Source: Clostridiaceae bacterium (GTDB lineage Bacteria > Bacillota > Clostridia > DSM-8532). Taken from it: DNA of 42,658 nucleotides. Below the pieces are notes generated by a model that saw nothing but the letters and a program-made list of their open reading frames with translations, was not told the origin of the DNA and made no database searches. Positions 28,833 through 32,075 of this stretch are shown piece after piece. The stretch lies in NCBI GenBank assembly GCA_012523705.1, contig JAAYTU010000073.1, positions 1 to 42,658 on the forward strand, read 5' to 3'. Both the position numbers and the translations under genes were made by a program. The number at the start of each line of letters is the position of its first letter. The first letter of the stretch is position 1.

Positions 28833-30665
28833 CTATTTGCTTTCAAGCTGCTTTTTTATTTTCTCTGCAAGATTAGGGCCTATTCCCTTGACCTGTGCAA
28901 TCTCCTCCACACTGGCTTCTTTGAGCTTCTTGGCTGAGCCAAAGGCCTTAATCAGGGCCTTCTTACGGACAGGTCCTACTCCTTCAAGCTCATCTATAAC
29001 TGACTTTTGCATACGCTTTCTTCTGAGGTTTTTATTATACTGTAGCGCATACCTATGGGCTTCGTTTTGTATTGATGCTACAAATCTCAATAAGTCATTG
29101 TCTCTTCTGAGTTCTACTCCCGTAACACCGTTCACCAGCCTATGGGAACGGTGCCTGTCATCCTTTGCCATACCCCAAATTGGAATATCTATTCCTAAAT
29201 CTTCAAGAACCTCTTTGGACACGCTTACATGCTGTGCTCCACCATCAACCAATATAAGATCCGGCAGGGTGGAAAAGGCTTCATCATTGCTCCCCGATAA
29301 ATATCTGTTAAAGCGCCTCAGCAAGGTCTCCTGCATGCTTCCATAATCATTCTGCTGAGTAATAGCCTTCATTTTAAACCTTCTGTAGCTTTTGGTATCT
29401 GGATGCCCTTCTTTGAAAACAACCATTGATGATACAATCTCGGTACTCCCAGTATTGGATATATCATAAGCCTCTATAACTTTCGGCAGTTCTTCGAGTC
29501 TTAAAGTATCCTTAAGCTTCTTTAACAGCTCCATGGACTTTGCCTGCATGGCCAAAACATTCCTCTGGTGTAATTCCAGCTCCTCTTTGGCATTCTGCTC
29601 GGCTATATTAACTAGTTCTGCCTTTGCCCCTCTTTTGGGAACAACAATATTAACTTTACTCCCCCGCCTTTTAGAGAGCAGCCCTGAAAGAGCTTCAAAA
29701 GATTCGGGTTCATGTTGAAGGGCTATTTCCTTTGGTATTTCAGGGTTAGAATCATAATACTGCACCAAAAAGGATTCTATAGCCTTACCAGGTTCTTCTG
29801 CTCCCATCCCCTCTAAGACATAAGCCCGCTTACCAACCAGTCTTCCGCCGCGTATGGCCAGGACACTGGCAGCATAATGCCAGTTATCAGAATATAGGGC
29901 AATGACATCCCGTTCCTCCTTTTTAAGAGTGTAAACTGACTGCTTTTTATATAATTCATTAATGCTCTTTATCCTGTCTCTAATAACTGCTGCCTTTTCA
30001 AACTTCAGTTCCTCGGCGTATCTGTTCATTTCCTCGTTAAGCATATCTATTACATCATCATGACGCCCGTCAAGAAATGCCAATGCTTTCTTTACCAGCT
30101 CCATGTATTCCTCTTTACTTATTTTACCTGCACAGGGGGCAGAACAAAGCCCGATCTGATAATACAGGCAAGGTCTTTGAGTTTTTTGAGTTGATATGGC
30201 TCTTTTGCAGGTTCTGACGGGAAACAGTTTTCTTAACACCTCAACAGAGTCCCTTACCGCTGACATCTTTACAAAGGTACCAAAATACTTGGCTCCATCC
30301 TTTTTCACCCTTCTTGTTATCTCTACTCGGGGGAACTCATCCTGAACTGTAATCTTTATATGAGGATAGGTTTTATCATCCTTTAGGAGAATATTATATT
30401 TGGGTTTATGCCGCTTTATCAGAGTGTTTTCAAGAATTAAGGCTTCTTCCTCGGTGTGAGTTACTATATATTCTAGGCTGTAAATATTGGACACGAGCAT
30501 GGCAGTCTTTGAGTCTCTGTCTTCACTGTGTCTGAAATAGGACCTGACACGGTTTTTCAGGATTTTCGCCTTGCCTACATATATAATTGTCCCTTCGCTA
30601 TCGCGCATTATATATACGCCCGGTGACTCGGGCAGATTATTTAACGTTTCTTTAAGTGATGCCAT
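28833..30665 (-). CDS. uvrC: excinuclease ABC subunit C
   Basis: LPESPGVYIMRDSEGTIIYVGKAKILKNRVRSYF, CLYYQIGLCSAPC, VDGGAQHVS, C-terminal HhH; start trimmed to MASLKETL at 30665. Confidence 0.98.
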   Translation of the reverse strand: MASLKETLNNLPESPGVYIMRDSEGTIIYVGKAKILKNRVRSYFRHSEDRDSKTAMLVSNIYSLEYIVTHTEEEALILENTLIKRHKPKYNILLKDDKTYPHIKITVQDEFPRVEITRRVKKDGAKYFGTFVKMSAVRDSVEVLRKLFPVRTCKRAISTQKTQRPCLYYQIGLCSAPCAGKISKEEYMELVKKALAFLDGRHDDVIDMLNEEMNRYAEELKFEKAAVIRDRIKSINELYKKQSVYTLKKEERDVIALYSDNWHYAASVLAIRGGRLVGKRAYVLEGMGAEEPGKAIESFLVQYYDSNPEIPKEIALQHEPESFEALSGLLSKRRGSKVNIVVPKRGAKAELVNIAEQNAKEELELHQRNVLAMQAKSMELLKKLKDTLRLEELPKVIEAYDISNTGSTEIVSSMVVFKEGHPDTKSYRRFKMKAITQQNDYGSMQETLLRRFNRYLSGSNDEAFSTLPDLILVDGGAQHVSVSKEVLEDLGIDIPIWGMAKDDRHRSHRLVNGVTGVELRRDNDLLRFVASIQNEAHRYALQYNKNLRRKRMQKSVIDELEGVGPVRKKALIKAFGSAKKLKEASVEEIAQVKGIGPNLAEKIKKQLESK

Positions 30666-30678
30666 ATTAACACTCCTA

Positions 30679-30719
30679 CATGGGACAGGGAACCGTCCCA
30701 TGTCTTACCCCTGTCTTAC
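30679..30719 (-). repeat. dispersed palindromic repeat, copy 2 (uvrC leader)
   Basis: minus strand GTAAGACAGGGGTAAGACATGGGACGGTTCCCTGTCCCATG; shares TAAGACAGGGGYRAGAC with copy 1. Confidence 0.8.
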
Positions 30720-30746
30720 AAAAAGCCGGCTTCCCAGCCGGCTTTC
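30720..30746 (-). terminator. intrinsic terminator of the HPr-like gene
   Basis: AAAGCCGGCT-tccc-AGCCGGCTTT with T-run on minus strand. Confidence 0.85.
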
Positions 30747-30760
30747 AAATCTGATGAATA

Positions 30761-31024
30761 TTACTCTGTCATTCCGTTATTGGCAAACTCCTCTAGCTCC
30801 ATCAGAGCCGTTGCCTCGTCTCTTCCATCGGTAATGATTGTAATCTTATCTCCGGGGCTTATGCCCAATGACAGAAGACCTAGAAGGCTTTTTGCGTTTG
30901 CTTTTCTTTCATCTTTTTGAATCCATATATTGGCTTCATAGCTTGAAGCTTTTTGGATTAGCCGGGCAGCCATTTTTGACTCTAGTCCGGTTTTGCTAAA
31001 TATTGTAACTTCCTTAGATAACAT
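30761..31024 (-). CDS. HPr-family protein lacking the active-site histidine (Crh-like)
   Basis: MLSKEVTIFSKTGLESKMAARLIQKAS...NAKSLLGLLSLGISPGDKITI; E at position 15, S at 46; RBS aggaggaag. Confidence 0.9.
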   Translation of the reverse strand: MLSKEVTIFSKTGLESKMAARLIQKASSYEANIWIQKDERKANAKSLLGLLSLGISPGDKITIITDGRDEATALMELEEFANNGMTE

Positions 31025-31111
31025 GTTATGCTTCCTCCTGGCTGTTACCAAGTGTAACTTGTATTATTACCACAGAATTTATTTAAGCTCTTATTAATAA
31101 ATATCATCCCT

Positions 31112-31250: not shown

Positions 31251-32075
31251 TCAACCCGCCGGATTAGGTTTTAGTTTAGCGTTCTTAACTATGGTGTTTG
31301 TAATACAGTGCTGTGGGCAAACGGCTGCACATTCCCCGCAATTGATACATTTTGTAGGATCTATTACTGCCAGAAAGTTATCCATATGAATCGCATCAAC
31401 TGGACAAACCTTTACACATTTCTGGCATGATATACAGCCCACATTACAATTCTTTCTAGCTGCCGCTCCTTTATCATGGCTGTTACATTTTACAGTAAAG
31501 CCTGAAAGAACAGGGATCAAGGCAATAATATCCTTCGGACATTCTGCAACACATTTCCCACAACCCGTGCATTTATCTGCATCTATATATGCCAAGCCGT
31601 TTTCTACAATAATTGCATCGAACTGGCAGACTTTCTTACAGCTCCCCAGCCCTATGCAACCGTAATGGCATGCATCCATACCTGAAGATAATGCATTTGC
31701 TGTGTGGCAATCATCCAAGCCTTGATAATTATATTTTATTTTCACATTATCACAATTACCCTGGCATAATACCCTGGCAACATTAAGATCTATAGAGCCC
31801 TCGTCAACCCCCATATAGTCGGAGATAGAATTTACAACAGCGATTCCACCCACCGGACATCGGCTGGCATGGACTCCTTCATTTACTATAGCTTCTGCAA
31901 AGCCATCACAGCCTGTATATCCACACGCCCCGCAATTGGCTCCTGGAAGCATTTCTCTTACTACAGCAATTCTTTCATCAACCTTGACCTCAAATACCTT
32001 GGCTGAAACAGAGAGTGCTAATCCAAAGGCAAGCCCCAAGCCTGATATAATAGCGACAGGAATCAATATACTCAT
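31251..32075 (-). CDS. rnfB: Rnf complex subunit B (ferredoxin-like, multi-[Fe-S])
   Basis: GANCGACGYTGCDGFAEAIV, CTGCGKCVAECP, CINCGECAAVCPQHC. Confidence 0.97.
   Translation of the reverse strand: MSILIPVAIISGLGLAFGLALSVSAKVFEVKVDERIAVVREMLPGANCGACGYTGCDGFAEAIVNEGVHASRCPVGGIAVVNSISDYMGVDEGSIDLNVARVLCQGNCDNVKIKYNYQGLDDCHTANALSSGMDACHYGCIGLGSCKKVCQFDAIIVENGLAYIDADKCTGCGKCVAECPKDIIALIPVLSGFTVKCNSHDKGAAARKNCNVGCISCQKCVKVCPVDAIHMDNFLAVIDPTKCINCGECAAVCPQHCITNTIVKNAKLKPNPAG

Follow-up and report, generated by a model that had tools for sequence, protein, structure and literature searches.

Members of the HPr family are phosphate carriers of sugar uptake, in which a histidine carries the phosphate and a serine is switched by HPr kinase. 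The solved structure nearest to the protein reported here is 7ff5, a phosphocarrier of R. cellulolyticum with Asp15, which may be the same protein as Ccel_0806. R. cellulolyticum has been modelled with Ccel_0806 as a Crh-like protein, with the LacI-family CcpA homologues LfpC2/3 and with no HPr orthologue or EII (PMC3656788). In Bacillus, unphosphorylated Crh inhibits methylglyoxal synthase (PMC9631020), and in Thermoanaerobacterium a His15Asp change in HPr relieves catabolite repression (PMC3526391). The literature searched held no paper on 7ff5, on Crh of Clostridium thermocellum or on structures of LfpC.

The window analysed here, a stretch of 42,658 nucleotides from a Clostridiaceae bacterium (GCA_012523705.1, contig JAAYTU010000073.1), encodes an 87-aa protein with the translation MLSKEVTIFSKTGLESKMAARLIQKASSYEANIWIQKDERKANAKSLLGLLSLGISPGDKITIITDGRDEATALMELEEFANNGMTE (Table 1). 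This protein matches the Pfam PTS-HPr model (PF00381) with E=4.6e-25 and 87.9 bits against a cut-off of 23, and its AlphaFold model (mean pLDDT 92.5) matches HPr structures at TM 0.9, with 7ff5 as the best match (TM 0.94, 57% identity). Judged by sequence and predicted fold, it is a member of the HPr family beyond chance. It shares this fold and family with canonical PTS HPr (ptsH), but has GLESKMA where the latter has GLHARPA, i.e. His15, Arg17 and Pro18 are replaced by Glu, Lys and Met. The hallmark of a PTS phosphocarrier (a phosphorylatable His15 with Arg17) is thus lacking, and that of Crh (no His at residue 15, Ser46 kept) is present. Translation confirms Glu15 and Ser46 at the codons that had been named for them in an earlier note on this DNA.

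Table 1. Features of the HPr gene and its flanks in the window
Feature	Position	Strand	Basis
HPr-family protein, 87 aa, Glu15/Ser46, Crh-like, uvrC-linked lineage	30761..31024	(-)	translation, PF00381, predicted structure
Codon 15, GAG = Glu, replaces phosphorylatable His15	30980..30982	(-)	translation
Codon 46, AGC = Ser, HPr kinase site, inside NAKSLLGLLSLG	30887..30889	(-)	translation
Ribosome-binding site AGGAGG, 9 nt 5' of ATG	31034..31039	(-)	sequence
Predicted intrinsic terminator, 9-bp stem AAAGCCGGC/GCCGGCTTT, loop TGGGAA, T tail (TT)	30720..30745	(-)	sequence
uvrC, conserved downstream neighbour, independent tree marker	28833..30701	(-)	ORF neighbourhood
rnfB, neighbour on the upstream side; retained there in near relatives but not in more distant ones	31251..32075	(-)	

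The gene lies between uvrC and the rnf genes and has a terminator, as previously described. With a ribosome-binding site on its 5' side and a terminator stem on its 3' side, it looks self-contained between rnfB and uvrC, and this layout makes monocistronic transcription plausible. The terminator scan gave a match at 30739-30724, inside the stem-loop element of Table 1. No strong sigma-70 promoter was found by the promoter scan; a perfect TATAAT is present at 31117-31112, without a good -35. An operon with the rnf genes is unlikely given the 226-base gap to rnfB and the HPr gene's own ribosome site.

Among described proteins, the window HPr is closest to the Crh-like HPr of R. cellulolyticum. 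Both belong to the uvrC-linked lineage (for R. cellulolyticum via the R. papyrosolvens orthologue), both have an acidic residue 15 and an identical Ser46 block, and the R. cellulolyticum protein likewise occurs in an organism without an HPr orthologue or EII. They differ in that residue 15 is Asp there and Glu here, and in that LfpC2/3 are modelled there whereas the LacI proteins here are just two, both of them distant. The kind is already described; what is added here is a variant with Glu15 that has become fixed throughout a neighbouring family, together with more detail on the genes missing from the genome.

We think it likely from sequence and gene content that the window HPr is purely regulatory, i.e. 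that its Ser46 would be a phospho-switch written and read by HPr kinase/phosphorylase and that the PTS carrier role has been lost. We examined residue 15 in 24 genomes of the organism's family (its own genome and G001-G023), and every HPr orthologue recovered from them has Glu15. In 28 DNA-distinct family sequences, codon 15 is GAA (17) or GAG (11) and codon 46 is AGC (14) or AGT (14), i.e. the two codons vary only silently within the family. The gene is under strong purifying selection, with a median dN/dS of 0.06 for family pairs not saturated at silent sites. Within the family, 36 of the first 80 HPr positions are invariant, and these are clustered at residues 14-25 and 42-53, the stretches that contain residue 15 and Ser46. 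Ser46 is invariant in the HPr alignment; many loci were retrieved by patterns including NAKSLLGL, so its constancy in those loci is partly due to their selection, while the genome-by-genome search is free of such bias.

The clade-wide conservation of Glu15, which the earlier note had proposed to check, is borne out by a tree of the neighbouring protein UvrC, built without any HPr sequence, in which the organism's family forms one clade of 31 rows, all with E at HPr residue 15. The concern that Glu15 might be a sequencing error or peculiar to one strain can be set aside, as it is family-wide and encoded by both GAA and GAG. Outside the family, the uvrC-linked HPrs without His15 differ from one another in this residue (D, Q, N, E, G, A or K), and many further uvrC-linked HPrs in the class retain GLHARPA.

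These data also bear on whether, as had been suggested for this protein, Glu15 acts as a permanent mimic of phospho-His15; such a mimic would lock HPr in a PTS-idle state. Glu is invariant in the family despite silent codon change, Asp15, also acidic, occurs in most Ruminiclostridium, and HPr His15Asp has been treated as phosphomimetic in Thermoanaerobacterium (PMC3526391). However, Q, N, G, A and K all occur among orthologues of the wider clade and B. subtilis Crh has Gln, and an invariant Glu15 is unexceptional where 36 of 80 positions do not vary. The occurrence of D, Q, N, G, A or K in relatives indicates that a negative charge is not generally required at this position. The relief of catabolite repression by His15Asp leads one to expect that a phospho-His mimic would oppose CcpA binding. 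The engineered His15Asp proteins (Thermoanaerobacterium; E. coli 1cm2, 1cm3 and 3ccd) resemble the window HPr in their acidic residue 15, but they are laboratory changes in hosts with an active PTS, whereas Glu15 is natural and fixed in a family in which most members lack EI. We therefore regard a functional mimic as unlikely.

We then consider the partners that a regulatory HPr would need. The genome assembly is 99.7% complete, which makes it unlikely that a gene was missed, but its 146 contigs leave room for this. No match to the enzyme I N-terminal domain (PF05524) was found in it, and its sole protein with the EI-type PEP-binding domain (PF02896) comes from an 887-aa frame, which matches pyruvate phosphate dikinase (PpdK) in size. 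There is likewise no EIIC match to PF02378, the only EII model searched. The only other HPr-family gene in the genome also lacks the histidine. The absence of enzyme I, of an EIIC match and of the histidine in both HPr-family genes excludes PTS relay and sets the window HPr further apart from canonical PTS HPr. The earlier note's claim that the protein cannot relay PTS phosphate holds up, also in view of its changed Arg17 and Pro18. Of the canonical ptsH and ptsI that it had proposed to look for, ptsI was not found, and the other HPr-family gene is not of the GLHARPA type. The first refuting condition of the note, a sole HPr alongside functional PTS transporters, has no bearing here, as the searches found no PTS. 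The positive control, B. subtilis, returned EI, EIIC and CcpA; it gave no match for HprK or WhiA, whose genes presumably lie close together in that genome, and so the search can miss genes. Within the family, EI is present in 6/24 genomes.

The loss of His15 together with a PTS that was not found is what a decaying ptsH remnant without present function would leave. This is most improbable for a gene that has a dN/dS of about 0.06, an invariant Ser46 block and a copy in every family genome examined; its dN/dS also rules out a pseudogene.

By contrast with the transport side, HPr kinase is present in the genome (PF07475, E=2.2e-73), adjoining murB, with intact Walker A (GESGVGKSE), HRLVADD and EIRGIGILDV motifs, and it occurs in 56/61 relatives, including 24/24 of the family. 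The predicted gene content thus indicates that the kinase side of the system is kept in this genome and the transport side lost. The presence of an intact HprK, for which a search had been proposed, agrees in kind with the earlier reading of a regulatory protein that faces HprK through Ser46. We infer that HprK phosphorylates the window HPr and that this serves carbon-state sensing. When glycolytic intermediates are plentiful, HprK would phosphorylate Ser46, and when they are scarce it would remove the phosphate; Ser46-P and unphosphorylated HPr would then bind a target differently. The protein would work like Bacillus Crh but have a separate origin, in which the uvrC-linked HPr of this clostridial group lost its His15.

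The other HPr-family gene of the genome encodes a 76-aa HPr-like protein (L004, contig C23, 6281-6511) without the His region and with DAKSIMGI round a Ser46-type site, which may be another HprK substrate. Short matches resembling it are present in most relatives searched.

The separate origin is suggested by both locus and tree. B. subtilis Crh is 41% identical to the window HPr. The best NCBIfam match of the window protein is PRK13782, which we take to stand for Crh, with 84 bits, below the cut-off of 123. In the HPr tree, a weak one from a short alignment of 88 columns, B. subtilis Crh falls with the whiA-linked rows (SH-aLRT 89) and the window HPr with the uvrC-linked ones. The whiA-linked proteins that group with Crh include N15, Q15, Y15 and H15 forms from other clostridial families, and some of the uvrC-linked proteins that group with the window HPr still have His15. 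The B. subtilis crh locus is presumably whiA-linked, and no HPr lies beside the whiA of the present genome (L214). Orthology with Bacillus Crh is rejected by the locus and, weakly, by the tree. The earlier label of a Crh-like regulator therefore stands for the likeness (an HPr fold with Ser46 but without His15, in a genome that has HprK) and does not extend to the lineage. The two also differ in Gln15 there and Glu15 here, and in that the Crh partners CcpA and MgsA are absent here in canonical form. Present evidence suggests that the window HPr may act like Crh, without being shown to be Crh.

A protein that was Crh in the strict sense would, in its Ser46-P form, bind CcpA and drive cre-dependent repression; the earlier note had proposed to look for ccpA and to test CcpA binding. 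The identity to B. subtilis Crh, the kept Ser46 and the presence of HprK are in line with this, as is the CcpA-homologue model proposed for R. cellulolyticum (PMC3656788). However, the genome has two LacI proteins only, whose scores of 140 and 119 bits lie below the CcpA cut-off of 442, and canonical CcpA was not found in it. The CcpA helix YDIGAVAMRLLTK, whose residues other than the Arg presumably also contact HPr, to judge from CcpA-HPr structures, is aligned with YTMAQKAVQALSE in the first of them and EAIGREAARQLID in the second. Neither keeps both the contact Arg and Lys, of which the Arg contacts HPr-Ser46-P (PMC4591507), and a CcpA partner is thus not supported in this genome. Furthermore, the first LacI protein adjoins an apparent cellobiose phosphorylase gene, as expected of a local regulator, and the second a likely sugar-binding protein gene (both named by sequence resemblance). 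Taken with the separation of the window HPr from Crh by tree and locus, this makes strict Crh function unlikely. Among the relatives, the CcpA survey covered the best CcpA-model matches, and for the wider family the negative result is limited to these.

MgsA, as the alternative Crh target, is rejected, as canonical methylglyoxal synthase was not found in the genome and only a diverged MGS-like protein is present (L218, 1204-1593, after an apparent minE; 102 bits against 146.9, PHDPD motif lost). Similar sub-cut-off MGS-like matches occur in most family genomes searched.

The target of the window HPr is thus probably not canonical CcpA; the likeliest candidates are a divergent regulator of the LacI family and a metabolic enzyme. 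We tentatively propose that the family runs a stripped-down relay from HprK to Ser46 on a His-less HPr, in members like this one without EI, EIIC permease or canonical CcpA and MgsA, with an output outside the described HprK pathways; this is possible rather than probable. Besides the 146 contigs and the search of a single EIIC family, two points weigh against purely regulatory function of the window HPr, which remains our preferred reading. As far as the genome sequence tells, neither known Crh output (CcpA, MgsA) is found in canonical form, and the His-less HPr-like protein at L004 could be the main HprK substrate.

The PDB entries 7ff4, a LacI-family regulator, and 7ff5, the Asp15 HPr, are consecutive and both come from R. 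cellulolyticum. 7ff4 has Gln where CcpA has the Arg that contacts Ser46-P. The two proteins are possibly a partner pair.

The HPr kinase branch outlives the sugar-transport branch in this group, with HprK and Ser46 HPr kept under strong selection after the loss of His15 and, mostly, of EI. The group is thereby well suited to a search for the role of HPr-Ser-P where PTS and canonical CcpA are both missing. This bears on cellulose-degrading clostridia, where catabolite control remains unsolved.

The EI and HPr genes of relatives are arranged in several ways. In Acetivibrio-like relatives, an EI-like gene lies between a His-less HPr (E, A or G15) and uvrC (L071, 4274-6028; also L059, L060, L061, L066, L070 and L078), and these EI-like genes keep the phospho-His (THASI/SHAAI), PEP-site and Cys motifs. 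This order, with a motif-intact EI-like gene after an E/A/G15 HPr, might suggest that enzyme I phosphorylates the window HPr elsewhere than at His15, e.g. as an acyl phosphate on Glu15. Such a reaction is hardly to be expected, as the present genome lacks EI, and at some of these loci it is Ala or Gly that faces the EI-like protein.

EI-bearing relatives have an extra HPr of the GLHARPA type near PTS genes. Residue 46 of this extra HPr is R, R, K or N at L031, L024, L034 and L115 (G003, G009, G008 and G004, respectively, of the same genus), which in these four places the His15 and Ser46 functions on two separate proteins. G007, G010 and G004 (in the last, a further copy at L116) have an EI-linked HPr with Ser46 retained. 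In G003, an H15/R46 HPr adjoins an EI homologue (L113, 2914-4675) that reads TSLTST where the phospho-His is lost and GLFQTE where the PEP-site Arg is lost, and that has no GTND motif; the two appear to form a degenerate EI-HPr pair.
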